Source: a virus
Virus record (IMG/VR): IMGVR_UViG_3300044621_001441
Coordinates: 1 to 25,747 of that record
Strand: one strand, 5' to 3'
Length of the DNA: 25,747 nt
Positions 6,201 to 25,533 of the stretch are shown piece by piece. Under the pieces are notes generated by a model, which was not told where the DNA came from, searched no databases, and worked only from the letters and a program-made list of their open reading frames with translations. Every line of letters begins with the position of its first letter. Position 1 is the first letter of the stretch. Made by a program: the position numbers and the translations under genes.

Positions 6201-6231
6201 TATACTTAAAGTGTAACTTACCCTTAAGGAG
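6201..6231 (+). promoter_or_regulatory. Candidate late promoter and strong ribosome site, copy 1
   Basis: TATACTTAAA (6201-6210) is the first of six copies of a motif found upstream of structural or accessory genes. Taking TATACT as a -10 box, RNA would start near 6213, leaving a leader of about 29 bases that carries AAGGAGAT (6226-6233), an excellent Shine-Dalgarno sequence ten bases before the ATG. No convincing -35 box is seen. The motif and leader closely match those of the capsid gene (both contain CCCTTAAG and AAGGAGAT), suggesting that this transcript is also very abundant. Confidence 0.55.
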
Positions 6232-6241
6232 ATTTTTAAAC

Positions 6242-6841
6242 ATGGCAAGGACAAATTTAAACATTGTTGGCGTTAGAGCATCAAACGCAACAGATTTAGT
6301 TGATGTTACTGGAGTCGATACAAAAGATACTATTGCTCCAATCACATCAGGTAGAACGGACATCGTAGCAGTTGGTGCTAACGCTGCAAATGGTACTCCG
6401 ATTACATCTTACAATGGTGTAACTGCAACATTAAAGCAAAGTTTAGCAATACACTATAATTTTGCTACGGATGGCGGAGCTATTGGTACTATTCAACTTA
6501 GAGGCGGCGTACTACCAGCAAACGCAGTTATCACTAATGCTTGGGTCGAAGTAACAACTGCATTTTTACCAATAACAACTTCAACATTCGCAATCGGTTT
6601 AACTGATGCAGCAACAGCACTAAGAACAGCAGTCGTAGCGACTTCTGCTCCAGCACTAAACGCAACTGGCTATGTAGCAGTAATTGCTCCACAAACTCCA
6701 GCTTCGTTTGTAACAAAAGCAGCAACAAACAGAAACTTTATCGCGACAATAGCATCTGGTGCTTTCACGGCTGGTGCTTTTGTACTTCACGTTGATTATG
6801 TTGTATCTGCACTAGATACTTCAACTGCTGCAACTAACTAA
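6242..6841 (+). CDS. Phage structural protein, putative (decoration-like, 199 aa)
   Basis: The protein is rich in Ala, Thr, Val and Asn with almost no charged residues in its middle, as in beta-rich virion proteins. The core pattern HYNFATDGGAIGTIQLRG, PANAVITNAWVEVTTAF and STFAIGLTD resembles small virion-associated proteins seen in many environmental phages. It has its own candidate late promoter and a strong ribosome site, which fits a protein made in many copies. A capsid decoration or head-stabilising protein is a reasonable guess. It lies between terminase and portal. Confidence 0.6.
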   Translation: MARTNLNIVGVRASNATDLVDVTGVDTKDTIAPITSGRTDIVAVGANAANGTPITSYNGVTATLKQSLAIHYNFATDGGAIGTIQLRGGVLPANAVITNAWVEVTTAFLPITTSTFAIGLTDAATALRTAVVATSAPALNATGYVAVIAPQTPASFVTKAATNRNFIATIASGAFTAGAFVLHVDYVVSALDTSTAATN

Positions 6842-6843
6842 AA

Positions 6844-7272
6844 ATGGCTGATATAACTACTGCTCTATTAAATGGCGTAAGCCCTAGTACGACAGGGACG
6901 TTTTATTCTCGTGGGTTCTCAACAAGAGACCTGCGAGATATTTCGTTTTTTCTTTTAATGCCATCAACAACTGGCACAGTTAGCACCTTAGATATATCTA
7001 TAGAAGAATTTGACACTATAGACGCAAATGGTGATCCAGCTAATGCAGAAAGAGTTAGAACTGTATCATTAACAACTCCAGCGAACAGCGTAGTAACAGC
7101 ATTCACCCAAGTAGTAGCAGGGACAAGTTCCCCGAATGCAACGCTTCAACAAAAATTAAATTCAAAGGATAACAACCTGAATAAATTTATTCGTGTAAAA
7201 TATGTAGTAGCAGGAACAGCAACGCATTTTACTAATATTAATGTAATTATGGCAGCTAATCAGAAAGTGTGA
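6844..7272 (+). CDS. Phage structural protein, putative (142 aa)
   Basis: The start lies two bases after the previous stop, so the two genes are co-transcribed and probably co-translated. The product is again Thr/Ser/Ala-rich and beta-like (TTGTFYSRGFSTRDLRDISF, STLDISIEEFDTID, FIRVKYVVAGT). It has no recognised domain. Pairing with the previous gene and placement in the head module suggest a virion protein that partners it. Its stop overlaps the GTG start of the portal (GTGA), so its translation should feed the portal. Confidence 0.55.
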   Translation: MADITTALLNGVSPSTTGTFYSRGFSTRDLRDISFFLLMPSTTGTVSTLDISIEEFDTIDANGDPANAERVRTVSLTTPANSVVTAFTQVVAGTSSPNATLQQKLNSKDNNLNKFIRVKYVVAGTATHFTNINVIMAANQKV

Positions 7273-9539
7273 ATAAGCTTGATATAAACGAAATACCCGA
7301 TAGCCAACTAGAAGCCTTCTCTAGTCATATTAATACCTTAATCGATTCAGTAAAAAATAATAACGATTTTTACAATGCAAGAGAAATTATAGACAAGGTT
7401 ATCTTGCAAGATGAGGATGTCGATTTATCTGATCGTAATAGCGTAATTTATCAAAGACTTAACAATGACAACTTAATTGAACGTGTTGTTGAAGAAGAAG
7501 ACATTGATGAATTTTCAACATTAAAAGATCCTATTTTGTATCGTATTTATAGGACCTGGGTAAACAATATCAAAAATGCGTGCTTCCCAACAAGCGGGGA
7601 TTATGTAGATATTAATAGGAATTTTAGCTCTCAATTTTACAAGATGGGATTAAAGAAGTTTTTACCCGAAGTTAATCAAGCTTGGATAAATATTATTAAA
7701 ACTGAAAATCAAAGATTTAATTTTAAAAAGAAATATTCAGCAGCAATAGCGGAGCTAGTAGCCTATGGCAATACTGGCATTGTTCATTATTACGACCCCT
7801 CAGAGAATATTGTTAATATAAAAACTCCAGGTATCGGAAGATTTAGCATTTATCCAATGACGGATAATTGGAGAGAGTCGAATTTAATTCTTGAATACGA
7901 TATTAATTACAGCGATTTATTAAATAGGGAAGACTTAAACCCTGAATTAATAGAAGCAATTAAGCCCGTGTTAAACTACAATGATTTAGGCGATAATGAA
8001 TTTATTGGCTCAACTAATCGTTTAACTGATGTAGCAACTCAAGCACCTTATGGGCAAGTTCGCTGCTATGACATATTTTTACCAAGTGTTTATTTAGAAG
8101 ATAGGCAAGATCGCAAAAACCCAATTACTGCCAAAGGTGTTTATGTTACTGCAATACAAGCACCAGAAACAATAGAGGGAACAAACCTAGAAGCTTTTGG
8201 TTTTAAAGATAATTTAGTTATTTTAGCAGCGTATCAAGATGTAAGCCCACACGACCACGGGATATGTTTAGCAGCAGCAGGAACAACTTTACCTGGAGTG
8301 TTTTATCATCAAGGCTTTATTAGACCTTTCTTGTCCCATCAATTATTATTAAATCAATTAATTTCGGGAACTTCTAGGGTTGTTGGTTTGTTATGCGACC
8401 CACCATTAAATCTCCTTCGCAATCAAGATTATGATTATGCGAACAGGACTGAAATCCCAGCATTTGAGCCAGGGGCAATGTATGAAGGCTTTGATGTTAA
8501 GGCTTTAGTTCCACCTGAATATAACCAAGTGGTTTCTCAATATGGTGCTTTAACGCAGGTAGTAACTAATATTGTTGAGCAAAGTTCAGGCTTAAGTAAA
8601 GCTCAAATGTCGGGGGTTACTTCTTCTCGGACTTCTGCAAGCGAGATTAAAGAAGTCGTATCAAGCGGGCAATTAAATATAGTTGATGCTTCTAACCAAT
8701 TTGACGAAGAAGTTTTACAACCTTCTGTTAGTAACCGAATTATTTTAACTCAACAATTTTTAAGACAACAAATAGAAGAGATCGAAGATCCTGCAATGCG
8801 TGAAGCGATATTGCTTGAAAATCCTTTATTTGAGCGTTTATTAAACTATTCAGGCATAGAAGAAATGTATGAGCAGTTTTATGAAGAGAATCAAAACGAA
8901 CTTGATAAAAACTCTGAAATTATAGATACAATAGAAGGCTTATTCGGAGAGATTGAGCAGCTTCAACAATTTGCAGCTTCTCCACCTAAAGATTTTGTAC
9001 CACCAGACGTTACGATAAACCCTGAAACTTTAGAGCAAACTCCAAATGCAGCAGAGATTGAACAGCTTAAAATGCAGCATGAGCAAAACGAAAAGGCTCA
9101 ACGAGACCAAGCCTTAAATGATGTTAAATTAAAACAAAAAGAAATTGAACGCAAGCAAAAAGAAATTAATAGAAATGTTCAAGAAATCCCAGAGCCATCA
9201 TTAGGTTTATATTACGATTTGTTAGTTTACCCAATTAAAGAATCAGATGTTCAAATTACTGGCTCAAAAACAACTTTAAGTAAGGAATATGCAAGGCAAA
9301 ATTTAAAAGAATTTGTTGGTTTCTTACAGGCAGCACCAGAGGTATTAGCAGAGTATGATATGAGTTCAGTGGTAGAATATTTTGCTAGAACTCTATCAAT
9401 TCCATTAAATAAACTTAAAAAAGACGAAGCAGAGAAAAGAAGAGATGAAGCGGCTAGGCAGCAGCAGGCAGAATTTGAGCAAGAATTGCAATTAAAATAT
9501 GCTCAAAATCCTGGAGCGCAACCACCAAAGTTTAGATAA
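7269..9539 (+). CDS. Portal (head-to-tail connector) protein
   Basis: The product forms the dodecameric ring through which DNA enters and leaves the capsid. At 756 residues it is in the size range of large podovirus portals such as those of P22 and N4, longer than T7 gp8. Portal-like features are an early WVNNIKNACFP segment, the helical stem and wing region (IRPFLSHQLLLNQLISG onward), SSGLSKAQMSG followed by SRTSASEI, a charged coiled coil near 590-640, and a C-terminal IPLNKLKKDEAE helical tail. It starts with GTG on the stop of the previous gene, and the scaffold and capsid genes follow. Confidence 0.82.
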   Translation: MNKLDINEIPDSQLEAFSSHINTLIDSVKNNNDFYNAREIIDKVILQDEDVDLSDRNSVIYQRLNNDNLIERVVEEEDIDEFSTLKDPILYRIYRTWVNNIKNACFPTSGDYVDINRNFSSQFYKMGLKKFLPEVNQAWINIIKTENQRFNFKKKYSAAIAELVAYGNTGIVHYYDPSENIVNIKTPGIGRFSIYPMTDNWRESNLILEYDINYSDLLNREDLNPELIEAIKPVLNYNDLGDNEFIGSTNRLTDVATQAPYGQVRCYDIFLPSVYLEDRQDRKNPITAKGVYVTAIQAPETIEGTNLEAFGFKDNLVILAAYQDVSPHDHGICLAAAGTTLPGVFYHQGFIRPFLSHQLLLNQLISGTSRVVGLLCDPPLNLLRNQDYDYANRTEIPAFEPGAMYEGFDVKALVPPEYNQVVSQYGALTQVVTNIVEQSSGLSKAQMSGVTSSRTSASEIKEVVSSGQLNIVDASNQFDEEVLQPSVSNRIILTQQFLRQQIEEIEDPAMREAILLENPLFERLLNYSGIEEMYEQFYEENQNELDKNSEIIDTIEGLFGEIEQLQQFAASPPKDFVPPDVTINPETLEQTPNAAEIEQLKMQHEQNEKAQRDQALNDVKLKQKEIERKQKEINRNVQEIPEPSLGLYYDLLVYPIKESDVQITGSKTTLSKEYARQNLKEFVGFLQAAPEVLAEYDMSSVVEYFARTLSIPLNKLKKDEAEKRRDEAARQQQAEFEQELQLKYAQNPGAQPPKFR

Positions 9540-9542
9540 GTT

Positions 9543-9794
9543 ATGCAAGGTAAAGTACAAAAGTTTATTAAAAGTGGAAGCAATCAATTTGATGCTTCAT
9601 TAGACAGAGCCATCGAAAAAGTTAAAACAACATACCCAAGTGAATGGCAGTTTATTTTAGATTATATTGATTCTCAAGCAACAATTACGCCTAAAGTGTT
9701 AAACCTGACAATCGAAGAGGCGGCAAAAGAAGCTTACGGGATAGGGAAAGTGTCAAAAATAGTTTATAGATTGACAAATTCAAAAGAAGAGTAG
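9543..9794 (+). CDS. Hypothetical protein between portal and scaffold (83 aa)
   Basis: This 83-residue, mostly helical protein (FDASLDRAIEKVKTTYPSEW, then LTIEEAAKEAYGIGKVSKIVY) starts three bases after the portal stop. The ribosome site is weak. Small proteins between portal and scaffold are common in podoviruses and their functions are mostly unknown. Nothing in the sequence points to a specific role. Head-assembly accessory factor is the contextual guess. Confidence 0.6.
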   Translation: MQGKVQKFIKSGSNQFDASLDRAIEKVKTTYPSEWQFILDYIDSQATITPKVLNLTIEEAAKEAYGIGKVSKIVYRLTNSKEE

Positions 9795-9810
9795 ATAGGA
9801 GTAAGACAAG

Positions 9811-10566
9811 ATGACTGATGAATTAAATGTAACAGAAGACCAAATCCTTGACGGAACAGAGGCAACAACAGAAGAAACCGCAACAGAAGAACCTCAAGGA
9901 ATTGAAAGCTGGCTTACGGAAGATGAGCCAGAAGCAAAAGAAGAAAACAATGTATTGCCAAATGCAGTAAAGGATTTATACGCAGAAATAGAAGCATTAA
10001 AAGCAGAAAAACAAAAACCTGCACAACAAGAGGAAGAGAAACCCGCAGAAAAAGCAGCGACTTTAGCGGAAATGCAGAAACTTTTAGATCAAAGAGATCA
10101 AATGGCTAAACAAGAAAAAATGCTAGAAGCAAATTATAATGCTTGTGCGGCAGTGATTGATTCTTATTTAGACGGAGTAGATGTTTCCATTAACAAAGTT
10201 TGCGGAGAGGATAACCCAAACAAAGATTTTTTAGTTAATTCTGCGCAAGAATCTTTAGAGCTTGCAATTATAAAAACTCGAATACAAGCAGAAGCAGCAG
10301 GTAAAATCTTAACGCCAGAAGACATAAAACGCATAACGAAATGGCACGCTAAAAAGTTTGTATCTGTATTTAAGAAATTTGAGAAAGGCGGTACTCCACA
10401 GGAAACCAAAGCTGGAGCAATCGGTACGGCAGTTAAACCTTCAAGCCTTAACGCAACAGAAAGAATAAATTTTCAAAAAGAATATGCAAGGGCAAGACAA
10501 GAAGGGAAATTAACTTATCAAATGGCAGTTAAAGCTAGAGAGATGGGTTTAAATTTGAATAAATAA
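9811..10566 (+). CDS. Capsid scaffolding protein, putative
   Basis: This 251-residue protein lies directly before the major capsid gene. Its first 55 residues are strongly acidic (DELNVTEDQILDGTEATTEE), followed by E/K/Q-rich helical stretches (YAEIEALKAEKQKPAQQEEE and LAEMQKLLDQRDQMAKQEK), and the C-terminus is basic and helical. This composition is typical of scaffolds, which guide capsid assembly and leave before DNA packaging; the basic C-terminal helix would bind the capsid protein. AGGAG (9797-9801) precedes the ATG by 9 bases. Position and composition carry the call; scaffolds diverge too much for motif evidence. Confidence 0.75.
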   Translation: MTDELNVTEDQILDGTEATTEETATEEPQGIESWLTEDEPEAKEENNVLPNAVKDLYAEIEALKAEKQKPAQQEEEKPAEKAATLAEMQKLLDQRDQMAKQEKMLEANYNACAAVIDSYLDGVDVSINKVCGEDNPNKDFLVNSAQESLELAIIKTRIQAEAAGKILTPEDIKRITKWHAKKFVSVFKKFEKGGTPQETKAGAIGTAVKPSSLNATERINFQKEYARARQEGKLTYQMAVKAREMGLNLNK

Positions 10567-10574
10567 AACAGAAA

Positions 10575-10584
10575 TATACTTTAG
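10575..10584 (+). promoter_or_regulatory. Candidate late promoter of the capsid gene, copy 2
   Basis: TATACTTTAG (10575-10584) followed by ATGTAC resembles copy 1, where TATACTTAAA is followed by GTGTAA. With TATACT as the -10 box, transcription would begin near 10587, just before a stem-loop at 10590-10605. No -35 consensus is apparent. It would give the capsid gene its own promoter in addition to read-through from 6201. Confidence 0.5.
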
Positions 10585-10589
10585 ATGTA

Positions 10590-10605
10590 CCCCTTAAGAA
10601 AGGGG
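10590..10605 (+). promoter_or_regulatory. Stem-loop at the predicted 5' end of the capsid mRNA
   Basis: CCCCTT (10590-10595) pairs perfectly with AAGGGG (10600-10605) across the four-base loop AAGA. It has no following T-run, so it is not a terminator. It would lie about three bases from the predicted mRNA start, and AAGGAGAT (10613-10620) follows outside the stem, nine bases before the ATG. Hairpins at the extreme 5' end are known to protect abundant phage mRNAs (for example T4 gene 32 and T7 transcripts) from decay, so that is the likely role. Confidence 0.55.
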
Positions 10606-10629
10606 CAAGTCTAAGGAGATATTTCACAA

Positions 10630-11865
10630 ATGGTAAACCCAATTAATAGTGTTCTTTCAATTAACGATGCAAGAACGTATATGGAAGATGTCCAATCGGA
10701 CATCATTAAAACCTCTGGAGTTAGAGCGCCTTTCTTGATGAAACACATGAGAACTGTGAGCAAAATGGGTTCTAAAGTTCAATGGTTTCAACAAGCAATT
10801 TCAAGGGGTGTATTAACTTTATCTGGTAGTTATTCAGCAGGTGCTACAACTATAACAGTAAACGCACCGACAAGAGCTAACCCTTTTGATACTGAAATTA
10901 AGCCAGGGGTAACAAGATTAGTTAATCAATCTGGTAGTGCAAAGTGGTTAATCACTGGAGTGAATGGAACATTTACAAGTTTAACTGTTCAGCTTTTAAG
11001 TGGCTACTCTGACCCAACAAGCTTGGCTTCTGGAACGCAACTATTCACAGATAGATCAGGCGAGATTGGTGATGGTTTCGGGGCAAATAATGACGTAGCA
11101 TTAGCAGGTTCTGATTACAATTTCTACTCTAATTTCTTCCACGACATTCAAATCGCTGGTCCAGTAGCAAATGGTAAATTCAATTACGCTGGTATCAATG
11201 AGTTGGATTTTAGCAACCAAGAAGAAAATTTACTTCCTACTATAATCCGTATGCTTGAAAGAAAAGCACTTAAGGATATTCGCTTAGAGGGTTCAAACCC
11301 ATTAACCGCAGATGGTTTTACTAGAACTTCTGGTACTGGCGCTCAAGCAGGTGGCGTGAAATTCTACATTGAAAACGGTGGTGGATACACGGTTACTGGT
11401 GGTAGTGCGAGCTTAACTGAGGCTACTGTAGAAGCTGACGTAATCGCTCTCAGAGATCGTGGAGCATTACAAGGCCCTAAAGTATTTACTAGACCAACAG
11501 ATCTAACTGAAATTGATATGTATGTATCAGAGAATGGCTTATCTGCTTTACAATCTCAAGTTCGTTTCCAAAGAGAAAACGCACAAAACGCTGATGGCGG
11601 TTTAGGTTCATCGCAAGCTTACCACATGCTTGTTAATGGCTGTAAATTAAATGCTCTTGTTTCTGATGGTATTGGAGACAATGAAGTAATTTACATTCCT
11701 CAAATGAACGATAACGTAATCATCAATGTTATGAGAATGTTTGAGAAAGTTGGTACTCCGTTTGAAGATGGTGATGGAATCAAACAAAAATATGGTACTA
11801 CATTTACAGAATGCGTAAAAGCTCCATGGACTTTAGGTTACAGAAATAACCTAGTGGCTATCTAA
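10630..11865 (+). CDS. Major capsid protein (HK97 fold, SU10-like)
   Basis: This 411-residue protein forms the icosahedral shell. Sequence and order (scaffold before, terminator after) fit a capsid protein of the SU10/DUF5309 type: an N-terminal segment ending in APFLMKHMRTVSKMGSKVQWF, a beta-rich inserted domain at about 62-140 (SGSYSAGATTITVNAP through SLASGTQLF), then HDIQIAG, a long helix with NLLPTIIRMLERKALKDIRL, and a C-terminal P-domain with VFTRPTDLTEIDMYVSENG and YIPQMNDNVIINVMRM. It has its own candidate promoter, a 5' hairpin, a strong ribosome site and a terminator, consistent with the most abundant virion protein. Confidence 0.85.
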   Translation: MVNPINSVLSINDARTYMEDVQSDIIKTSGVRAPFLMKHMRTVSKMGSKVQWFQQAISRGVLTLSGSYSAGATTITVNAPTRANPFDTEIKPGVTRLVNQSGSAKWLITGVNGTFTSLTVQLLSGYSDPTSLASGTQLFTDRSGEIGDGFGANNDVALAGSDYNFYSNFFHDIQIAGPVANGKFNYAGINELDFSNQEENLLPTIIRMLERKALKDIRLEGSNPLTADGFTRTSGTGAQAGGVKFYIENGGGYTVTGGSASLTEATVEADVIALRDRGALQGPKVFTRPTDLTEIDMYVSENGLSALQSQVRFQRENAQNADGGLGSSQAYHMLVNGCKLNALVSDGIGDNEVIYIPQMNDNVIINVMRMFEKVGTPFEDGDGIKQKYGTTFTECVKAPWTLGYRNNLVAI

Positions 11866-11875: not shown

Positions 11876-11900
11876 AGAGAGGGGAAACCCTCTCTCTTTT
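11876..11900 (+). terminator. Intrinsic terminator after the capsid gene
   Basis: AGAGAGGG (11876-11883) and CCCTCTCT (11888-11895) form an 8-bp stem closed by a GAAA tetraloop, followed after one C by TTTT. This is the only textbook intrinsic terminator in the window. Its position right after the capsid stop would cap the head transcript and lower tail gene expression. A weak TATAAC (11913-11918) lies between it and the next gene and could restart transcription, though it lacks the late motif. Confidence 0.85.
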
Positions 11901-11948: not shown

Positions 11949-12755
11949 ATGCCATTTTTAGTATTAGGTGGAGCTTTAGAGTATGATGGGGATATGAAGC
12001 GTTTTTACAATAAACCGCATCCCGCAACAGGTTTATTGGAAAAAGTTTTAGTTCAAGATGGAGAGTATAAAACTCCATTACGCTTAGGTTTTGGGGATGA
12101 ATGTAATTTTATTGCAAGTTCTCCTGAATTTAGAGAAATTGTTTACAGGGGCGTTCCAAATTTAAAAGATAAAAATTGGATGGTTAATCCAGTATGGAGA
12201 GTTCCATCAAATCGCTACTTTAACCTTATCGAAAGAAGTGGGGATGAAGTAGATTATATGCCAATGCACCAAGCATTTAAGAGGCTATTAGAGTTTTACA
12301 AATTAAACTTAACTCAATCAGATCAGGTGATATGGTATGAGCCTGATATTGCCGACATTATGATTCAGAATTGGGGTTCTCAGAAAAACTGGCATTTCCC
12401 ATTATGGTTAATCAAAGAATTAATGAAGATGGGTGAATTTGAAAATGCTTTAAGACGCAGAAAATTATCTTCTGATGGCGGTGAGTATGTTTTAACTCAA
12501 CAAGAGTATGAACAATTAATGGGAGCTATCAAAGAGAGAGAAGCGATTGAAGCTGAGACATTAGAAGAAACTGAATCTCTAGGTTTAAAAGTATTACTTA
12601 AGAGTTATTACGATGGTAAAAAAGCTCAAACGGTTAGGGATGCAATGCCTGCTACTCAAAAAGCAAAAAAACAAAATAAGGATCGTGGAGAATTGCAGCA
12701 AATGATTTCAGAGCAATTTGAAGAGGAGCAAAAAACTGCCAATAACGTATCTTAA
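11949..12755 (+). CDS. Hypothetical virion-assembly protein (268 aa)
   Basis: The ATG is preceded by AAGGAG (11938-11943). The N-terminal half looks globular and aromatic-rich (RFYNKPHPATG, YKTPLRLGFGDECNFIASSP, NWMVNPVWRVPSNRYF). The C-terminal third is charged and helical (QLMGAIKEREAIEAETLEE, then KAKKQNKDRGELQQM). No known domain is recognised. The gene lies between the capsid and the tail-tubular gene, where T7-like and related phages often carry head-completion or connector accessory proteins. The last 38 bases overlap the next gene and contain its ribosome site. Confidence 0.6.
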   Translation: MPFLVLGGALEYDGDMKRFYNKPHPATGLLEKVLVQDGEYKTPLRLGFGDECNFIASSPEFREIVYRGVPNLKDKNWMVNPVWRVPSNRYFNLIERSGDEVDYMPMHQAFKRLLEFYKLNLTQSDQVIWYEPDIADIMIQNWGSQKNWHFPLWLIKELMKMGEFENALRRRKLSSDGGEYVLTQQEYEQLMGAIKEREAIEAETLEETESLGLKVLLKSYYDGKKAQTVRDAMPATQKAKKQNKDRGELQQMISEQFEEEQKTANNVS

Positions 12756-15437: not shown

Positions 15438-15447
15438 TATACTTAAT
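15438..15447 (+). promoter_or_regulatory. Candidate late promoter, copy 3
   Basis: TATACTTAAT (15438-15447) is followed by ATAT and then the ATG at 15452. If TATACT is the -10 box, RNA would begin at about 15450-15451, at the start codon. No ribosome site is present, so the ejection-protein operon may start as a leaderless mRNA. No -35 box is seen at the usual distance. The motif lies three bases after the stop of the nozzle gene. Confidence 0.45.
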
Positions 15448-15451
15448 ATAT

Positions 15452-16627
15452 ATGGCTAAAAAAGGCGGTTCTGGTAGTGGTGGCGGTGGCGGAAAAGCTG
15501 CTACAGTTGCTAATTCCTCGGCAGGTGTTAAGACGTTAGGTCCAGCAGCAGTAGCACCGATAGCGATTGATGCGATAGCAGGTGCAGTAGACGCCGCTGC
15601 TCCAAAGTTCACATCAGGAATTACAGAAGACGATATAAATAAAGGTCGCAGTGATATTAACAAAGGCTTTGGAAGAGGAAGCGACATTCTTAGGGGTGGC
15701 GTAACTTCTGGCTCAGGCGTTGAGATTGGGAGCTTAACCCCACAAACAAGAAAACAAAGACAGGACGACAAAATCAGAGCTTTTGCTGAGTCGGCAGATT
15801 TCCAATCAAAAACTCCTGCACAACAAAAAGCTTTTGTTGAAAGATTTAGGCAAGGTGAACTTGGCAAAAAGGGCAGGGGTTTAGTCAAGGAAGCCTTGAC
15901 TGGTGGCGGTTATAAATATGATCCTGCTACTGGGAAATATGTAGTAGCAGAAGAAGAGCCTTTTTTAACAACTCCATCTGATGAATTAAGAAAACAAGGT
16001 ATAGAAAATACTGGTGGGATTTTTGGAGAAATGGGGGACTTAACTTCTTTAATCGGTGAAGATGTTAAAGGTGCATTAGAGTATAAACAAAATTTAAGAG
16101 ATTATTTTTCTAACCTTACTGGATCAATGGATCAAGAAGGTTTAACGGCTCAAGATCAAGCAGATTTAGACGCACAATATTCACTGGGGAGGAGAAGGGT
16201 TCAAGAAACCTTAAGAGATGATCTCCAAAGGACAATGGGCGATTTAACGCAACGTGGGTTTAGTTCTTCTAGTTTATCGAATCAAGCTTTACAGCGTGGG
16301 GCATTTGACCCATTAAGTAGAAATATAGTAGATTTAGAAGCAAGCCAAGCAGGGATGAGGCAAGATATATTAAATGCTCGTGCTTCACGTAGAGGGCAAT
16401 CATTTAGAAATTTACTTGGTGCTGGAGCTCAATTAGGTTCAGGTGGATTTAGTAGTTTAACTTCTGGTATTGTTTCCCCAACAGCTTATGGTGGTTTCAC
16501 TGATCCTGCTGCTGCTGAATTTATTTATGGTGGCTTAAAAGATCAAGCTGGCAGGCAAGATACACGTGGCACTAACTTAGCTACAATTCAAACTAAACCG
16601 AGAATGATTCAAACAGGAGGCTTTTAA
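15452..16627 (+). CDS. Internal virion (ejection) protein, putative (391 aa)
   Basis: The product starts with a Gly-rich, disordered segment (GGSGSGGGGGKAATVA), then an Ala-rich stretch, and from about residue 200 onward it is strongly helical (RRRVQETLRDDLQRTMGDL, ending in a Gly-rich tail). This composition is typical of podovirus ejection proteins, which sit in the capsid and enter the host envelope with the DNA. It occupies the position after the tail nozzle and before the giant protein at 17473, like T7 gp14. No catalytic motif is visible. It has its own candidate promoter and apparently no leader. Confidence 0.6.
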   Translation: MAKKGGSGSGGGGGKAATVANSSAGVKTLGPAAVAPIAIDAIAGAVDAAAPKFTSGITEDDINKGRSDINKGFGRGSDILRGGVTSGSGVEIGSLTPQTRKQRQDDKIRAFAESADFQSKTPAQQKAFVERFRQGELGKKGRGLVKEALTGGGYKYDPATGKYVVAEEEPFLTTPSDELRKQGIENTGGIFGEMGDLTSLIGEDVKGALEYKQNLRDYFSNLTGSMDQEGLTAQDQADLDAQYSLGRRRVQETLRDDLQRTMGDLTQRGFSSSSLSNQALQRGAFDPLSRNIVDLEASQAGMRQDILNARASRRGQSFRNLLGAGAQLGSGGFSSLTSGIVSPTAYGGFTDPAAAEFIYGGLKDQAGRQDTRGTNLATIQTKPRMIQTGGF

Positions 16628-17472: not shown

Positions 17473-20400
17473 ATGGATCTTGTTGAGTCTATTAATAAAA
17501 TAAAAGCAAAAACAGTAGATCCATTATTGGAAGATCAGGCTATCAAATATCTTGCAGGGAAGGTACAGAAAGGGCAAATTAACGAATCCAATGTAAACGA
17601 GGTTGTGTCTAAGATTAATTCTGGGCATATAGAGTCGGGTGGTTTTGCGAAAGAAGCCATAGCAGATGCAATAAGAAGTGTCCCCACGGCATTATATGGA
17701 GAAAATCCTAAAGGCTTATCTCAAGTAGTTGGTAAAACAATAGCAAGTGCAATTCCTAGTGCAATCAAATCAGCAGCAGAGATTCCAGCATTAATGCTAG
17801 AAGTTCCCGAAGCTGTAAAAAGCTTATCTTCTTTTGGTGGAAGGAAGGGCGTTAAGCAAGCATTAGGCGGGGCTGATTTAGCAGGTGGTTTAGCTCAGGC
17901 TGGAAAGTTTACAAGAGATTTAGCAAGTGATGTTACAGGGATACAAGACGGGCAAGGATTCCAAGATTTGCCAACTGGTATTGGTACTGTAGCAGGGGGT
18001 TTAATTGGCGGAGCAGCATACTTTAAAGCTATTGGAGCAGCTACAGAAGGTGCTTTAGCAGCAAACATATTTAAAGATTTGACAGCTAAGGGGATTGCAA
18101 AGACAGCAGCACAAGCAGGAGCTAAAAGATTTATAGCAGGTACAGCAGCTAATACGATAGCAGGCTCTCCATTATCTCTAGCAGCTTCAATGGACGAAGA
18201 GGGGAATATTAACCCTAAAGACTTAGCTTTAAATTTAGCTATAGATACTGCATTCGGTGGAGTAATAGAAGGTGCTGGAGCAGCATTAACAAAGAATTAC
18301 GGCAAGCAAGCTTTAAGAGAAGCGGGCAGAATGGCTCAAGGGCAAGAAGGTTTTATCTTTAGAGGTAATAGTAAAGAGTCTTTAAAAGGGATAGCTGAAA
18401 CAAATAGGGCATTTAATAGACGTAACGTAGAAACTTACAAGGCTAAAGGTGCTAACGAAGCAAGAGCAGCAGAAGAAGCAAAAGCAGCAGCAGCACTGAA
18501 ATATGAAAAGATTGAATCTGATTTAATGCAAGCTAGGTCTTTGACAGAACAAAGGCAAGGGCAATTAGCAGAAGAGCAAACACGTTTAGGGCTTAAAGAA
18601 GAGACTAGGCAGAATGTATCTACTTTAAATGAGATGTACGAAGCTGAAAAGCAAACAGCTTTCAAGCAGATAGACACAGAGCAAGATAAATTAGTATCTG
18701 AAATCCAAAGAGAAAGTGAACAGAAAACAAAAAACCTGCTTAAACAGAAAGCTGATATAGACAAGCAAGAGCGTACATTAACTAAGCCATTTGATTTAGA
18801 AGAAAAGAATTTAGCTAAACAACAGAAGCAAGTTAATGACTCTTATCAACGTGCTAAAAAACAAGCTGAGACGGAGCCTGTAGAAATCACTGAAACTCCC
18901 GAAACTGTTCCCCAAGAAACAGCAACGGCACCACAAAGAAATTACGAAGAAGAATTTAATCTTTTTCAAAAAGAAACAAATACTAAATACGAAAGTTTAA
19001 AAACTCAGCTAGAAGAATCTAGGCAAACAAAAATTGCAGAACTTGATATTAAATTTAAACAGAAGCAAGAATCTTACGCACGTGAAATTGAACAAACTAA
19101 AGCAGAGTATTCTAAATCGCTTGATGAAATTAATAACTTACCAGACTCGGTAAGTAAAGAAAAAAAAGCAAAACGAGTTAAGCAATATTTTGAAAATAGA
19201 TTACAAAGCTTAGAAAGAAACAATCAAAAACTAGAAGGTCAATATTCTCAAGCAGTTAAGCAAACTGAAGAGCAGGTCGCTAGTAAACTAACGGCATCTC
19301 AAGCTGATTTTGAAAAAAGTTTAAAGGCAAAGCAAACAGAATTAGCAGAACAGCAATTAAATAAACTTGATCCTACTTATAAAATTTCATTTAACAAATT
19401 TCAAAAAGATTTAAGTTCCGAAGTTAAAACTAAGATCACAAATATTAAAACAGCAGCAAAAGAAAAAGCCGTTAAGTTTCAAGAGCAATTAGCAAATGCT
19501 CAAAAAGGTTATGATGATTTTCTTGCAAGACAAGCTTCTTTAGGAAGTTATAAGAATGAACCAGCTAGAAGAGCAGCAGAAGGAAGAGCGGCAAAGGCTA
19601 AAGCTAAATTTGAAAACTATAAAAAGCTTCATGCAGAAAAGATTGCACAGCTTAAAGAAACAGTAGCAAAACAAATAGAGACTGTAAAAACAAAACAACA
19701 ACAAGCATTAGAAGCAAAGCAAGCTGAAATAAATCAATTAAAAGCAGATGTAGAAACAAAGCGTTTGCAAGATATAGAACTGCAAAAACAACAACTTAAA
19801 GAACAAAGACTTAAAGCATTAGATGACGAATACAATGCAGCTAGATCGGATGTAGATACCAGGCTTAGTGTAACTAATGCAAACAGAAATCAAGCTATAT
19901 CAGAGTTTCAAGCTAAGAAACAAGCTTTATTAGAGCAACAGCAAAAGCTAGAGCAAGAAGTTAAAGATAAGATAGATTATTTGAACAGGCGTAGAGAGGC
20001 ATTAAAGAAACAAAAAGAAGTAGCTTTAAATCGTCAATTCAAGAAAGATGCCTTAAGAGAATACAGAGAGAAGATGGGGATAGAGACTCCTGTTTTGCGT
20101 AATGCTGATGACATTGAAGTAGATCGAATGATTGCTAAAGAAGAGTTAGATCAAATTGATGCTCAGTTAGCAAAGCTTAAGGCAGAACGCAACCCGATTA
20201 TAGAGACCGAAGAAAAAACAATCTCAAGAGCTGAATCAGAAAAAGAAGCTTTAAACGATATGTATAAAGCGATGTACCGCCATCCAGCGTTAATAGCAGA
20301 AATGAAAAGTGAAGTAGGGAAAGCGGAAGTTGAAAATGCTGGAGCTTTCATTAGTGATGCTTCCGTGAAAATGCCAACTGCAACTAAAAAACCTAAAAAC

Positions 20401-22602
20401 AAAATTATTCAAACTGCTGAAAATGCTGGGAACTTATGGAATACTTTAGTACAACCAATAATATCAGCTTTAAGAGATATTAACCCATCTTTAGCAGGGC
20501 AACTTCGTAAGTTTGAATTTTCAAGTTCAAAAATTGCAAATAAACATTTATCTCAAGCAATGCCTTTATTCAGCAAGTTAGGGAAATTATTAAGCAAAAA
20601 TGAAAAGAAAATTTTCAACTCTTATTTAATTAAAGGCGACCATGATGCAATCATGGCTTTCTTATCTAAGATTGATAAAGAAGGGCGACAGTTTAAGGAA
20701 CTGCCACCAATATTTAAAGCACCTTTAAAATTTTTAGAGGCGGAAGACACCGCAAGAGATTTTGAAAAATTAATAAATAAACCTTTAACGGAACTATACG
20801 AAACAGGGGTTAGACCTGTCCTTGATGATCTTTATGCACAACAAACCGAAGCGGGGCTTGAAGTAGGTTTTATTGAAAATTATTTTCCAACAAGTGTTAA
20901 AAAAGATAGCGTTGAGACTTGGCGTTCACTTTTTGATTTAGATAAAATCACAGATGATTTAAAAGCTGATCCAACAACAAGGACAGAATACGATACAGCT
21001 TTAGCTAAAGAAAGAAAGAAACTTGGGCGTGAACTTGAAGAGCTAGAGCGAATTGAGTTTACTAATAAGTTTTTAAGGGGTTACGGTGGAGTAGGCAGTA
21101 CCCCAACGCTTTCTAATAGAAAACCTAGATCGGGATTAGCTCAACAGATGGAAGGGATTATTTTTAAGGATGCTAAAGGGAACGAGCGTTTTCTTTCTGA
21201 CTTATACGAAGACCCAGCTACAGTATTAGAGAATTATATTAATCGCTCTACTTTTGACATAGAGAGTCGTAAATTCTTTGGTAGAGCGGATGGTGCAGAT
21301 TTAACTACAAGTGTCGGTGCTTTTACAGATAGTCTAAGACAAAACAATGAAATCTCAAGTGAACAAGTTGTTAAGGTTAAGGATTTACTTACAGCACGTT
21401 TTGTTAATGGTCCTAAAAAGCCAGCTAATTTTGCTCGTTTAGCTAAAGACGGAGCATTGCTTACTGCTCTGAATGATATTCAAAGTACAATAACACAGGC
21501 TACGGAGCTTGGCACTAGTGCTTATAGGAATGGTATTTTGAATACTATTAAAGGTTTAGGGCAATCATTTGACCCTGAGACTGTAAAAACCTTAGACTTG
21601 GGCATTGCCCGTATCGGTGCGGATTATGCTGATAATCCTTCCGTGGTTCGTAAAGTTGTTGATTTTGCTTTGAAGATAAACGGTTTTAGGGCAGCGAATA
21701 AATTAATGCAAGAAACACAGTTAAATGCAGGATTTAATTATTTTAAAAATGTTTTTACAAAAGAAAAAGGTGCGAAGTTCGATAAAGAATATTCTTATTT
21801 AAAAAGCATGTTCGGGGTAGATGAAGCCGATAGAATGGTACAAGCTTTCCGTACTAAGAATTTAAAAGAAGCGTATGATGATGATAGCATTGGGCTTGCT
21901 TTATTTGAACGCCTTTCAGGAACGCAAGTTTTATCTTTAAGCGATATGCCTGCTGGATACTTACAAGCTCCAGACCTAAGATTCTTTTATGCGTTAAAAA
22001 GCTTTAGTTTAAAAATGCTTCAATTCACTAAAGATGAAGTCTACAGTGGTATGGCAAATGGGATTAAATCTATTGCAACTAAAGGATTAAACAAACAAAA
22101 CACTAAACAATTAGGTGAATCCCTAAGAAACGCTATTGCTCTTAGTGTTTTAGTTGGTGGTTCAAACTATGGAATTAATTATTTTAAAGATATAATCAAA
22201 GGAAAAACAAGCGAAGAATATCAATCTTTAGAAGAGAGAACGGTTGAGGCAGCTTTTCAAACATTTATACCAATAGTAAATCCTTATATGTTTTACAAAT
22301 TAGATAAGCAAGGTTTAGCGGCAGGGTTCGGAAGCTTTATTATGCCTGCGGCTCCATGGCTTGATGCGTTAGATGCCGATGTAAAAGAATACAGGAAGGC
22401 AGTAGATACAGGCGAAGAATATAATCCTTTCTTGTCTAGAATTTTAGTGAATAATATTCCTATCGCTGGTAAAACATTATATGCGTGGAGTCCTGCTGGT
22501 AGACAGCAATATGAAAATGCGATTGAAGCAAAGCAAAAAGACAGAGCAGCTAAAGAGAAAAAATTGAGAGAAAAACAACTTGCAGAGTTGAGAGGCTATT
22601 AA
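17473..22602 (+). CDS. Giant internal virion / DNA-ejection protein (1709 aa)
   Basis: The product is the largest in the window and is placed like T7 gp16, which threads through the tail and forms part of the trans-envelope DNA channel. Residues about 60-310 are rich in Ala and Gly with hydrophobic stretches (LPTGIGTVAGGLIGGAAYF). Residues about 315-940 are an exceptionally long region of E, K, Q, R and A with coiled-coil character. From about 975 to 1709 it is folded and helical, with ENYFPTS near 1135 and a hydrophobic segment near 1552 (NAIALSVLVGGSNYGINYF). I see no clear lytic transglycosylase motif. It starts directly after the previous stop without a good ribosome site, so translation is probably coupled. 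The ENYFP segment recalls large polyvalent phage proteins. Confidence 0.7.
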   Translation: MDLVESINKIKAKTVDPLLEDQAIKYLAGKVQKGQINESNVNEVVSKINSGHIESGGFAKEAIADAIRSVPTALYGENPKGLSQVVGKTIASAIPSAIKSAAEIPALMLEVPEAVKSLSSFGGRKGVKQALGGADLAGGLAQAGKFTRDLASDVTGIQDGQGFQDLPTGIGTVAGGLIGGAAYFKAIGAATEGALAANIFKDLTAKGIAKTAAQAGAKRFIAGTAANTIAGSPLSLAASMDEEGNINPKDLALNLAIDTAFGGVIEGAGAALTKNYGKQALREAGRMAQGQEGFIFRGNSKESLKGIAETNRAFNRRNVETYKAKGANEARAAEEAKAAAALKYEKIESDLMQARSLTEQRQGQLAEEQTRLGLKEETRQNVSTLNEMYEAEKQTAFKQIDTEQDKLVSEIQRESEQKTKNLLKQKADIDKQERTLTKPFDLEEKNLAKQQKQVNDSYQRAKKQAETEPVEITETPETVPQETATAPQRNYEEEFNLFQKETNTKYESLKTQLEESRQTKIAELDIKFKQKQESYAREIEQTKAEYSKSLDEINNLPDSVSKEKKAKRVKQYFENRLQSLERNNQKLEGQYSQAVKQTEEQVASKLTASQADFEKSLKAKQTELAEQQLNKLDPTYKISFNKFQKDLSSEVKTKITNIKTAAKEKAVKFQEQLANAQKGYDDFLARQASLGSYKNEPARRAAEGRAAKAKAKFENYKKLHAEKIAQLKETVAKQIETVKTKQQQALEAKQAEINQLKADVETKRLQDIELQKQQLKEQRLKALDDEYNAARSDVDTRLSVTNANRNQAISEFQAKKQALLEQQQKLEQEVKDKIDYLNRRREALKKQKEVALNRQFKKDALREYREKMGIETPVLRNADDIEVDRMIAKEELDQIDAQLAKLKAERNPIIETEEKTISRAESEKEALNDMYKAMYRHPALIAEMKSEVGKAEVENAGAFISDASVKMPTATKKPKNKIIQTAENAGNLWNTLVQPIISALRDINPSLAGQLRKFEFSSSKIANKHLSQAMPLFSKLGKLLSKNEKKIFNSYLIKGDHDAIMAFLSKIDKEGRQFKELPPIFKAPLKFLEAEDTARDFEKLINKPLTELYETGVRPVLDDLYAQQTEAGLEVGFIENYFPTSVKKDSVETWRSLFDLDKITDDLKADPTTRTEYDTALAKERKKLGRELEELERIEFTNKFLRGYGGVGSTPTLSNRKPRSGLAQQMEGIIFKDAKGNERFLSDLYEDPATVLENYINRSTFDIESRKFFGRADGADLTTSVGAFTDSLRQNNEISSEQVVKVKDLLTARFVNGPKKPANFARLAKDGALLTALNDIQSTITQATELGTSAYRNGILNTIKGLGQSFDPETVKTLDLGIARIGADYADNPSVVRKVVDFALKINGFRAANKLMQETQLNAGFNYFKNVFTKEKGAKFDKEYSYLKSMFGVDEADRMVQAFRTKNLKEAYDDDSIGLALFERLSGTQVLSLSDMPAGYLQAPDLRFFYALKSFSLKMLQFTKDEVYSGMANGIKSIATKGLNKQNTKQLGESLRNAIALSVLVGGSNYGINYFKDIIKGKTSEEYQSLEERTVEAAFQTFIPIVNPYMFYKLDKQGLAAGFGSFIMPAAPWLDALDADVKEYRKAVDTGEEYNPFLSRILVNNIPIAGKTLYAWSPAGRQQYENAIEAKQKDRAAKEKKLREKQLAELRGY

Positions 22603-22609
22603 ATTAGAG

Positions 22610-22619
22610 TAAACTTAAA
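22610..22619 (+). promoter_or_regulatory. Candidate late promoter, copy 4
   Basis: TAAACTTAAA (22610-22619) precedes the GTG at 22625 by five bases. Taking TAAACT as -10, RNA would start near 22622, within three bases of the start codon, with no room for a ribosome site. A TTGAGA (22588-22593) lies 16 bp upstream of the hexamer and is the one motif copy with a plausible -35 box. It would drive the fibre and accessory genes. Confidence 0.5.
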
Positions 22620-22624
22620 ACAGA

Positions 22625-23347
22625 GTGGCAACTAAAGGCGATTTAACAACTCCATCATCTAGCTCATTAACTACGTTTACTAATGGTGCTGGTAATTTTA
22701 TTGATGCAGTTGATGCGAATGGTAACTTTGCTTATTTACTTGGTCAATTAATAACTTTAAATAATGTAATAGCAGATCAAATGCCACAACTTGGCGTGGC
22801 TAGTGTTTATACTGCTTTGCAAACTTTTACAACGATTGCCGTTAATGTGATTAATGAAGCTACGTTAAATGGCGATATAGTTTTAGACTGTAATGGCTCA
22901 GGGAAGGTACGCTATGCAGATGGTTCTAGCGATACCGAGATAGCTTCCAAAGGCTATGTTCAAGGTGTAGCTTTTACGGCTGGTAATGTTCCAAGTGGTG
23001 GTACTGCTTCAACTTGGCTAGAGGGTAACGGTATTTGGACTGATCCAAGAACATTTACACCGTGGGAAGTTAAAACCTCTAACTTTAACGCAACAGACAA
23101 AGGTCAATATTCTATGAACGCAGGTGTAAATGCTCAGCTGCCTGCACCAACAGCAACATTTACTGCTGTATTTAAACCAGCGATAGGACAAGATTTTACA
23201 GTAACCCCTGGGGTTTTAGTAAGGGCAGGTTCAGAGAAGATAGCTAATGACACTGCTAGTTACACAATGGATATAAATGCAGAGTACAAGATTACAAGTA
23301 ACGGCACAGATTACGATGTGTCAATAGCACCAATAGGGAGAGTTTAA
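22625..23347 (+). CDS. Tail fibre protein, putative (240 aa)
   Basis: The 240-residue protein begins with GTG (no ATG is available nearby) and no ribosome site. The N-terminal MATKGDLTTPSSSSLTTFTN and FIDAVDANGNFAYLL are followed by VYTALQTFTTI, then ASKGYVQGVAFTAG, a phrase typical of fibre and appendage proteins of this phage type. The C-terminal half is beta-rich (QYSMNAGVNAQLPAPT, PGVLVRAGSEKIAND, AEYKITSNGTDYDVSI). It is probably a trimeric adhesin or fibre base that binds the virion and host surface. It follows the ejection proteins like T7 gp17. Confidence 0.65.
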   Translation: MATKGDLTTPSSSSLTTFTNGAGNFIDAVDANGNFAYLLGQLITLNNVIADQMPQLGVASVYTALQTFTTIAVNVINEATLNGDIVLDCNGSGKVRYADGSSDTEIASKGYVQGVAFTAGNVPSGGTASTWLEGNGIWTDPRTFTPWEVKTSNFNATDKGQYSMNAGVNAQLPAPTATFTAVFKPAIGQDFTVTPGVLVRAGSEKIANDTASYTMDINAEYKITSNGTDYDVSIAPIGRV

Positions 23348-23349
23348 TT

Positions 23350-23751
23350 ATGGCAAGTGCAAGTAATTTAGTTGGCAGTAATTTAATCAAGGCTGGAGAT
23401 AACTTAAGAATTGACCAGATTAGTTTTTTGAGTAATCAGACTGGAGCTGATATAACAGTTTTAACTAGAAGCGGCAAAGGTTTTGTTGAAGATTTAACTT
23501 TTATAAGTCCAGGTAATTCAAGTACGTTGTTCTTGACTGTCAATTCAATTAAGGTGACAATAGACGGAGCTGCTGAACGTACTTTTAATTTTGCTACAAG
23601 CCAACTATATAGAGGAATAGCAGGAGTACTGTATATAGTCACTAAAACCTTACCAATTAACTATAATACAAGCATTACAGTTAAAGTAAATTACGATACC
23701 AATGCTGCAACAACAGACGCAAAATGTTATGTAACTCATTCCATACGTTAA
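23350..23751 (+). CDS. Small beta-rich virion protein (133 aa)
   Basis: AGGGAG (23335-23340) lies nine bases before the ATG, two bases after the previous stop. The protein is mostly short beta-strand-like segments (LRIDQISFLSNQTGADITVL, VEDLTFISPGNSSTLFLTV, RTFNFATSQLYRGIAGVLY), with a balanced polar surface and no hydrophobic helix. Likely a fibre-associated or decoration protein that works with the previous gene. Family not recognised. Confidence 0.55.
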   Translation: MASASNLVGSNLIKAGDNLRIDQISFLSNQTGADITVLTRSGKGFVEDLTFISPGNSSTLFLTVNSIKVTIDGAAERTFNFATSQLYRGIAGVLYIVTKTLPINYNTSITVKVNYDTNAATTDAKCYVTHSIR

Positions 23752-23769
23752 AGCAATTTTAGGGATTTT

Positions 23770-24039
23770 ATGAAACCAAACAAAGGCAAAGCAGTAGCTA
23801 AAGAAAACTTTAATTTCAAGAAAGAGCATAAATCTGATAAAGGCGGTTTGACAGAAAAAGGGCGTAAAGCTTATAATGCAGCTACAGGTTCTAACTTGCA
23901 AGCACCTCAACCACAAGGCGGAGCTAGGAAGAAATCATACTGTGCTAGAAGCAAAGGGCAAATGAACGACTTTAATATTGATTGTTCTAAAACCCCTGAA
24001 AAAAGGATTTGTAAGGCTAGGAAAAGATGGAAGTGTTAA
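23770..24039 (+). CDS. DUF6321-like protein (89 aa)
   Basis: The protein is basic and carries the sequence GGLTEKGRKAYNAATGSNL followed by APQPQGGARKKSYCARSKG and a C-terminal KARKRWKC, which I match from memory to DUF6321, found in marine phages. Four cysteines (in SYCAR, DCSK, RICKA and the terminal C) could bind metal or sit in a reduced cytoplasmic protein. Function is unknown. AGGGA is four bases upstream of the ATG. It starts a run of three small basic genes. Confidence 0.65.
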   Translation: MKPNKGKAVAKENFNFKKEHKSDKGGLTEKGRKAYNAATGSNLQAPQPQGGARKKSYCARSKGQMNDFNIDCSKTPEKRICKARKRWKC

Positions 24040-24042
24040 ATA

Positions 24043-24162
24043 ATGCCAAAAAAACTAGAAAGATGTGTTAAAAATGTTCAAAAAACGGGTAAGGATAAAT
24101 CTAGTTCTTATGCGATTTGTACTGCAAGTTTAAAAAAGGGCAAAGCTAAAAAGAAAAAATAG
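24043..24162 (+). CDS. Small basic cysteine-containing phage protein (39 aa)
   Basis: A short gene between the DUF6321-like and HNH-like genes. The 39-residue protein begins PKKLERCVKNVQKTGKDKSS, continues with YAICTAS and ends in a lysine tail. I recall similar tiny proteins with an ERCVKKV ... AYAICTASLKK pattern next to DUF6321-type proteins in environmental phages. Two conserved cysteines and the basic tail suggest nucleic-acid binding, not proven. Spacing is three bases from the previous stop and two bases to the next start, so all three genes are one unit. Confidence 0.6.
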   Translation: MPKKLERCVKNVQKTGKDKSSSYAICTASLKKGKAKKKK

Positions 24163-24164
24163 TT

Positions 24165-24416
24165 ATGGCTGAACGCAATTATAAAAAAGAATACTCAAAT
24201 TATCACAGTTCTAAAGAGCAAAAAGAAAAGCGTGCTTCTCGCAATGCTGCTAGAAGAGAGATGATGGCTGATGGCAAAGTTAAAAAATATGACGGGAAAG
24301 ATATTGACCATAAAAATGGCAATCCAAGAGACAACTCCAAATCAAACCTAAGAGTTCAATCTAAATCACAAAACAGATCATTCCCTAGAAATAGCAATGG
24401 TGGTAAAAAGAGATAA
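24165..24416 (+). CDS. Small HNH-like protein (83 aa)
   Basis: The C-terminal half contains KDIDHKNGNPRDNSKSNLRV followed by QNRS: D48-H49, N51, G52, N53, N57, N61 and N70. This is the core of HNH nucleases, with Asn in place of the last His, a common variation. The N-terminal half is basic (RASRNAARREMM). At 83 residues it is much shorter than most homing endonucleases and has no DNA-recognition domain. It could nick DNA, help packaging or be a remnant. No intron or interrupted gene is visible nearby. Its last three bases overlap the motif at 24414. Confidence 0.7.
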   Translation: MAERNYKKEYSNYHSSKEQKEKRASRNAARREMMADGKVKKYDGKDIDHKNGNPRDNSKSNLRVQSKSQNRSFPRNSNGGKKR

Positions 24417-24423
24417 ACTTAAA
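24414..24423 (+). promoter_or_regulatory. Candidate late promoter, copy 5
   Basis: TAAACTTAAA (24414-24423) is identical to copies 4 and 6. Its first six bases end exactly six bases before the ATG at 24426, so the RNA would begin at the start codon. The gene has no Shine-Dalgarno sequence. The motif begins on the last base of the HNH-like stop codon's frame, overlapping the end of that gene. No -35 box is evident (ATAGCA at that distance). Confidence 0.5.
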
Positions 24424-24425
24424 AC

Positions 24426-24746
24426 ATGAGCGGACTAGGACCAAGAGGAACATCAGCAACACCAGTAGCTATTTTAGGTGGAGCAACGCACGCAATCTCT
24501 TTTACTGCGACAAGTGCAAGAAATGCGACACCATTTAACTCAAAAACAAGAATTTTAGCAGCAATGGTAGCAGACCAAAACTGCTACATTGAAGCTGGTG
24601 ATAGTACGGTAGTAGCCACTACATCAAGCACGTACCTAGCAGCAGGGGCAGTATATAGTTTTGGTATTGACTCAAACATTACGCATATAGCAGTTATCAG
24701 GGCTACTACTGATGGTACACTAAGATTCTTTGAATCAAAGCCTTAA
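24426..24746 (+). CDS. Small virion-like protein (106 aa)
   Basis: The protein is beta-rich and Ala/Thr-rich, with the pattern FNSKTRILAAMVADQNCYIE, AGDSTVVATTSSTYLAAGAV and ITHIAVIRATTDGTLRFFE. I recall similar small proteins (ADQ-x-CYIEAGDSTVVA) in many phages near virion genes, without an assigned function. A decoration-type protein is likely. The gene ends facing the sigma gene and the two reading frames overlap by 12 bases. It has a candidate promoter and would be read from a leaderless RNA. Confidence 0.6.
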   Translation: MSGLGPRGTSATPVAILGGATHAISFTATSARNATPFNSKTRILAAMVADQNCYIEAGDSTVVATTSSTYLAAGAVYSFGIDSNITHIAVIRATTDGTLRFFESKP

Positions 24747-25517
24747 GGCTTCATAATCCCCCCGCAAAGATTCTTTTAAGAAGGTTACATTGCGGTTCAG
24801 TATTTGATTCAATTCAATAAGAGTTAAGTTATAAATTTCGCATAGTTTATTTTTAGTAAACTCTTGATTTAGATAACTTAGCACTATAGGGTATTCATCT
24901 TTGGGAATTTGTGATAAAAAATATTCCAAGTTTTCGGAAAGATCATCATACTCTTTAGAAGAAACGGGGATACTTTCTTTAATTAATTCATGGTCATTCA
25001 AAGGTACATCTATAGACTCAACTAATTGGCTTGAGTAGGCTTGGTATAATTTATTAAATTGATTTTTTGAAAGCTTTAATTTTTCTCTAATAGTCTCTAG
25101 TGGTTCAACATTAAGTAGGCTATGCAGCTCTTGAATTGCGTAATATTTCAATACGGGAATTTTAATCGTTGAAGAAGTTTGAATAAACTTTTGGATTCGT
25201 TGGTTAATCCATTGCCCAGCGTAAGTGCTAAATCTATAGCCTAGTTTTGGATTAAACTTTTCAGCAGCACGCTTTAAACCTGTAACAGCTTCTGAAATTA
25301 AATCTTCTAGTTCATAACCCCGATCCATAAATCTATTTGCAATATGTCTAGCCAATCTTAAGTTATGATAAATTAAAATCTTTTCATAAATTGGTCTTGC
25401 TAATTCATTGGAATTAAACCAAGAAGCCAACTCTTCTTCTTCGTTTTTCTTAAGAACTGGGATTTTTTTTATTTTGTCTAACAGGTTAGATAAACTCATG
25501 TTCTTATTATAAGACAT
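24735..25517 (-). CDS. Phage-encoded sigma-70 family factor
   Basis: This protein of up to 260 residues would redirect host RNA polymerase. Region 1.2-like IPVLKKNEEEELASWF lies at 19-34. Region 2 runs from about 44 to 122 (NLRLARHIANRF, LEDLISEAVTGLKRAAEKFN, RFSTYAGQWINQRIQKF, TIKIPV). A degenerate region 3 follows, and region 4 lies at about 205-252. The usual YATWWIRQ is YAGQWINQ, so the first Trp of the melting pair (W433 in E. coli) is Q102, while the -12 contact Gln is kept (Q106). In region 4 the RERIRQ contact block reads LIELNQ, so -35 binding is probably weak or lost. Coordinates take the longest frame; Met7 (25499) is equally possible because TATAAT lies six bases upstream of it. 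It is the only minus-strand gene. Confidence 0.85.
   Translation of the reverse strand: MSYNKNMSLSNLLDKIKKIPVLKKNEEEELASWFNSNELARPIYEKILIYHNLRLARHIANRFMDRGYELEDLISEAVTGLKRAAEKFNPKLGYRFSTYAGQWINQRIQKFIQTSSTIKIPVLKYYAIQELHSLLNVEPLETIREKLKLSKNQFNKLYQAYSSQLVESIDVPLNDHELIKESIPVSSKEYDDLSENLEYFLSQIPKDEYPIVLSYLNQEFTKNKLCEIYNLTLIELNQILNRNVTFLKESLRGDYEALRL
24738..24751. repeat. 14-bp palindrome at the convergent gene ends
   Basis: AAGCCTTAAGGCTT (24738-24751) is a perfect palindrome shared by the last codons of the plus-strand gene and the minus-strand sigma gene. As RNA it gives a 5-bp stem with a TTAA loop in either direction. A second small inverted repeat, GATTC-TTT-GAATC (24724-24736), sits next to it. 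Neither has a strong T-run, so a weak bidirectional terminator or RNA 3'-end stabiliser is possible but not convincing. Confidence 0.35.
25506..25511 (-). promoter_or_regulatory. Candidate -10 box of the sigma gene (TATAAT)
   Basis: On the minus strand a perfect TATAAT lies inside the first codons of the longest sigma frame and ends six bases before Met7. That is the same spacing as the late motif at 24414 has to its ATG. A poor -35 candidate, TTTAAG, lies 16 bp upstream. If real, host polymerase would make a leaderless sigma mRNA starting at Met7, independent of the phage sigma factor. The hexamer overlaps coding sequence of the alternative start, so both cannot be right together. Confidence 0.35.
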
Positions 25518-25523
25518 ATAGAG

Positions 25524-25533
25524 TAAACTTAAA
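25524..25533 (+). promoter_or_regulatory. Candidate late promoter, copy 6
   Basis: TAAACTTAAA (25524-25533) is preceded by GAG, as copy 4 is. The hexamer TAAACT ends seven bases before the ATG at 25537, with no ribosome site. The motif lies 6 bp from the longest sigma start on the other strand, so polymerase bound here would collide with expression of the sigma gene. It drives the last, rightward genes of the window. Confidence 0.5.

Follow-up and report, generated by a model that had tools for sequence, protein, structure and literature searches.

A 13-base motif, TAWACTTWAnnYR, precedes six late genes or gene groups of the phage DNA analyzed here (25,747 nucleotides, hereafter the window), and we consider it likely, with a probability of roughly 0.75, that this motif is a late promoter composed of a -10 box plus an initiator, with no -35 element, and that it is read by a sigma factor encoded by the phage itself. 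The assignment was made from sequence comparison. A phage-specific late promoter had been proposed in an earlier note on this DNA, and the proposal is supported by the conservation of the motif at orthologous gene boundaries, its confinement to the late strand, the initiator step and the matching residues of the sigma factor. What is added here is the combination of a longer late box that includes an initiator, late genes that are mostly predicted to be leaderless, and a matching loss of residues in the sigma factor.

Positions of the late motif

All six copies listed in the earlier note were found at their positions with the reported sequences, all on the plus strand, and the two further matches that it mentioned, one in the portal gene (9410) and a near copy at 12304, are also real. 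Exact TAWACTTAAA occurs five times in the window, four times before genes and once in the portal gene, always on the plus strand and never on the minus strand; the late copies at 10575 (TATACTTTAG) and 15438 (TATACTTAAT) are plus-strand variants, and a reversed control pattern of TAWACTTAAA gave 0 matches in the window search. Each copy lies directly before a structural or accessory gene, as had been claimed, with the correction that the copy at 25524 precedes a 41-codon ORF (25537-25662) and then the next gene on the same strand. Taking TAWACT as positions -12 to -7, the candidate late promoters and the two decoys are as follows:

6201-6213, plus strand: candidate late promoter 1, TATACTTAAAGTG (-12 to +1) with G6213 as the predicted start; TATACT unchanged across 9 distinct relatives
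10575-10587, plus strand: candidate late promoter 2, TATACTTTAGATG; before gene 10630-11865
15438-15450, plus strand: candidate late promoter 3, TATACTTAATATA; ATG at +3 of gene 15452-16627, predicted near-leaderless
22610-22622, plus strand: candidate late promoter 4, TAAACTTAAAACA; GTG at +4 of gene 22625-23347, predicted near-leaderless
24414-24426, plus strand: candidate late promoter 5, TAAACTTAAAACA; transcription predicted to start on the A of the ATG of gene 24426-24746 (leaderless)
25524-25536, plus strand: candidate late promoter 6, TAAACTTAAAGTA; ATG at +2 of the short ORF 25537-25662, predicted leaderless
9410-9419, plus strand: decoy, TAAACTTAAA in the portal-like gene; no pyrimidine-purine step at -1/+1; not preserved in most relatives
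12304-12313, plus strand: decoy, near copy in a coding gene; most relatives do not retain the copy

The first promoter would produce a 29-nt leader with AAGGAG before the gene of a 199-aa protein (6242-6841), and the second a 43-nt leader with a hairpin and AAGGAG before gene 10630-11865, which probably encodes the major capsid protein; the stability of this hairpin is only mildly above that of shuffles (z -1.5). At promoter 5, the TAA of the motif doubles as the stop codon of the preceding gene. Directly 3' of the probable capsid gene, at window positions 11876-11895, there is a strong terminator-like hairpin, AGAGAGGGGAAACCCTCTCT followed by CTTTTCTTGC.

When the 10-mer was searched with 1 mismatch over the whole window, its count was ordinary (15 observed versus 17.5 expected), and because such whole-window counts gave no enrichment, position-restricted and comparative tests were adopted. 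The enrichment over shuffled controls that the earlier note had expected is therefore absent from the window as a whole but present in the late intergenic gaps: 6 of these 11 gaps (485 nt in total, including 15 nt of each preceding gene) contain TAWACTTWA, whereas 2000 dinucleotide shuffles averaged 0.125 gaps and never exceeded 2. Leaving the motif free (9-mer, 1 mismatch) returned the late motif as the best one, present in 6 gaps, a number reached by 0 of 300 shuffles, with 13 reaching 5. The signal was not separated from shuffles when 8-mers were used for discovery (6 gaps observed, and 6 or 7 in 56 of 300 shuffles). The motif is shared by late gene groups and is rare elsewhere on the plus strand.

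Conservation in related phages

Relatives of the same phage type were found in IMG/VR, namely G001 (42.7 kb), G011 (40.9 kb), and G008 (29 kb), together with shorter pieces. DNA identity among the four long records, the window included, is about 70-98% over aligned stretches. In G001, G008, and G011 the motif recurs at these six boundaries, as it does in fragments that include them; fragments contribute further copies for the first five sites, and the other motif matches in the three long relatives are within genes or outside the late cluster. Across distinct relatives, TAWACT shows 0 differences in 198 cells and the nine-base motif 6 differences in 297 cells, all of them at the first site (6201). 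These phages are closely related, with identities of 76-98% for the sigma factor and 91-100% for the capsid, and the conservation at orthologous boundaries is therefore not fully independent. As an upstream control, 87 of 972 cells (9%) differ in the nearest 30 bases and 497 of 3495 in the next 110 bases. The decoy hexamers drift, with 5 of 36 cells differing at 9410 and 15 of 48 at 12304.

The capsid and portal proteins had no match in described phages, no relative of the terminase was found in GTDB genomes, matches of the terminase and helicase were distant and scattered, and no Rfam family was present in the window. At positions 1-10129 and 40179-42635 of the reverse-oriented G001, helicase, lysozyme-like and other functional genes (named by eye) occupy the minus strand, with the structural genes on the other one; in G011 the helicase (also named by eye) is on the plus strand instead. 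G011 further contains, at 29249-32534, two minus-strand genes that are absent from the window; judged by eye, the 799-aa product resembles a restriction-type DNA helicase and the 303-aa product a transposase. A 1709-aa protein of the window (17473-22602), perhaps an internal virion protein, matched nothing in Pfam or PHROG.

Box architecture and predicted leaderless starts

The C at -8 is invariant across the six late sites and differs from TATAAT; at each site the predicted start, +1, is a purine preceded by a pyrimidine at -1. Positions -16 to -13 are mostly purines. Inspection of the six sites revealed no TG at -15/-14 and no -35 consensus, in agreement with the earlier observation that the copies share no -35 box. 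The 13-mer TAWACTTWAnnYR finds the six sites in every one of the four long records; the only extra match is the decoy at 12304, in the window and G001, and none occurs on the opposite strand of the four records.

A feature absent from the earlier note is that four of the six copies imply a leaderless arrangement. From the predicted +1 to the start codon there are 0 nt at 24414, 1 at 25524, 2 at 15438, and 3 at 22610, the first T of the box lies 12, 13, 14, or 15 nt before the start codon at these four sites, and a Shine-Dalgarno site was sought at the four starts and found at none. Some bacteria have many leaderless genes with a TANNNT box approximately 12 bp upstream of the start codon (PMC3160421), and the four late sites have the same features, a TANNNT box about 12 nt before the start and no Shine-Dalgarno site. 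The likeness lies in the spacing from the first T of the box to the start codon (12-15 nt at the four late sites, 13-14 at the early sites and 12 at the sigma gene); unlike in the bacterial genes, here two phage promoter classes share the arrangement and the late consensus is longer. Because four copies lie 2-5 nt before a start codon without a Shine-Dalgarno site, the motif could also be regarded as an RNA or translation signal, such as an initiation enhancer or a processing site, rather than a promoter. We consider this highly improbable, since the other two copies are 31 and 45 nt before their starts and are accompanied by a separate AAGGAG, the motif is absent from most other genes of the window that have no Shine-Dalgarno site, and only a promoter explains the pyrimidine-purine step at the predicted start. 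As promoters, the four sites are predicted to give leaderless or near-leaderless mRNAs that start 0-3 nt before the start codon.

Predicted early promoters and the phage sigma factor

The early genes carry different boxes, as previously noted, and both boxes given for them, TGGTATAGT and TGGTATATT, are real. Their class box is TGGTATANT, in which the early sites, unlike the late ones, carry TGG. The predicted early promoters and the sigma gene with its predicted promoter are:

939-947, plus strand: early promoter, TGGTATAGT, extended -10; ATG 956 at +3
1297-1305, plus strand: early promoter, TGGTATATT, extended -10; ATG 1313 at +2; another copy at 1277-1285
24735-25517, minus strand: member of the sigma-70 family; translation probably begins at the second Met, 25499
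25506-25511, minus strand: predicted promoter of the sigma gene, host-type and leaderless, TATAAT 6 nt before ATG 25499; polymerase bound at this box would overlap with candidate late promoter 6

At the early sites, the first T of the -10 hexamer is 13-14 nt before the ATG, and in G001 TGGTATAAT precedes the minus-strand cluster, with the ATG at +1. Upstream of the early genes, a long non-coding region contains four GCCGATAAGYAAWRTTA copies (window 191-336, spaced by 39-50 nt), which are possible replication iterons or operators.

The predicted promoter of the sigma gene and late promoter 6 are divergent. The TATAAT is kept in all four long records, where it stands back to back with late promoter 6, 12 bases apart on opposite strands, a distance at which RNA polymerase could not occupy both simultaneously. 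Negative autoregulation of the sigma gene through late promoter 6 is possible.

Each long record has one sigma-70 factor gene, and the protein scores above the curated cut-offs for sigma-70 region 2 (PF04542, 53.7 bits versus 24; TIGR02937, 63.3 versus 42.9). A second scan using the sigma alignment added nothing beyond these three relatives (G001, G008, and G011) apart from weak fragments. In E. coli sigma-70, Q437 and the aromatics of region 2.3 read or melt the -10 element, H455 and E458 read the extended -10, and R584, E585, and R588 read the -35 (PMC2613000, PMC4593229). Aligned with it, the sigma factors of the four phages keep Y425, F427, T429, Y430, W434, and Q437; W433 and T440 are replaced by Q, so sigma-70 is not a straightforward model for how they read the -10. 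The extended -10 residues are changed in all four phages (H455L, E458Y), as are the -35 residues, with R584 replaced by L, C, F, or Y, E585 by I or F, and R588 by N or S. The elements missing from the late sites, the -35 and the extended -10, match what the sigma factor appears unable to read. The protein was rejected as a housekeeping-type (group 1) sigma-70, which would have the region 4.2 residues R584, E585, and R588 as well as H455 and E458. AlphaFold gave a poor model (mean pLDDT 52), and a PDB fold search matched sigma factors only loosely; the helix-turn-helix fold is probably kept in the model, where residues 201-250 have a pLDDT of 68-88.

The same boxes could be -10-only promoters for the housekeeping or another sigma factor of the host, perhaps with a phage activator, in which case the phage sigma would serve other genes or modify the host. 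TATACT and TAAACT both fit TAnnnT, so a host sigma could read either weakly, and leaderless genes behind such boxes are common in some bacteria (PMC3160421). This explanation is nonetheless unlikely: the C at -8, unlike TATAAT, is found in 6 of 6 sites, the TTWA extension is retained, the early boxes of the same genomes consistently differ by their TGG, and the contacts lost by the phage sigma are those for elements absent from the late sites. A short conserved late motif confined to one strand would also suit a phage single-subunit RNA polymerase of the T7 or Xp10 type. The chance of this is slight in the extreme, as no RNA polymerase match was obtained among the scanned window proteins, the box has the form of a sigma -10 element and the genomes encode a sigma factor. 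A PF00940 profile search of the genomes gave no match, its controls being equally silent.

Discussion

We propose that the host sigma would transcribe the early genes from the extended -10 promoters and the phage sigma gene from its TATAAT. Host RNA polymerase core carrying the phage sigma would then switch on the six promoters along the strand of the structural genes, reading the late box through sigma regions 2.3/2.4 with neither a -35 nor an extended -10, and perhaps reading the TTAAA discriminator through region 1.2. At four of these promoters, transcripts would begin 0-3 nt ahead of the start codon, and those ahead of the genes of the 199-aa protein and the capsid would give short leaders containing a Shine-Dalgarno site, as would fit high-output genes. 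More tentatively, and less likely than not, the phage sigma may have shed -35 and extended -10 reading and direct leaderless late transcription from the -10-plus-initiator box alone, with the overlap between late promoter 6 and the host-type promoter of the sigma gene silencing that gene as late expression begins.

By analogy, the nearest described systems are those of phiEco32 and Salmonella phage 7-11, in which a phage sigma reads a motif of approximately 9 bp that occurs in few copies before structural genes, at promoters TAATGTATA with a TGATGT core (PMC4331800). As in the phages studied here, the sigma factor is the phage's own, with a distant relationship to the sigma-A family, a few motif copies of about this length precede structural genes while early promoters are of the host type, and structural and functional genes are on opposite strands, as in G001. 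The motif itself differs, however, and here the sigma factor is encoded within the structural region, most copies imply leaderless mRNAs, and no anti-sigma was identified. The earlier note had drawn the parallel with T4, whose late promoter TATAAATA is a -10-only promoter read by the phage sigma factor gp55. To that extent the parallel stands, but it is the looser one: the sigma factor described here spans regions 1.2 to 4, whereas gp55 is reduced, and the motif, with its C at -8, is different. Neither a gp33 co-activator nor a sliding clamp was recognized by eye among the predicted genes.

These results pair an unstudied phage sigma factor with a probable promoter in a phage clade that has no close cultivated relatives. 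They offer a clean natural case in which the residues lost from a sigma factor, which serve extended -10 and -35 recognition, agree with the elements missing from the promoter. If the leaderless prediction is true, most late transcription units of this phage would begin at the start codon or at most 3 bases from it.
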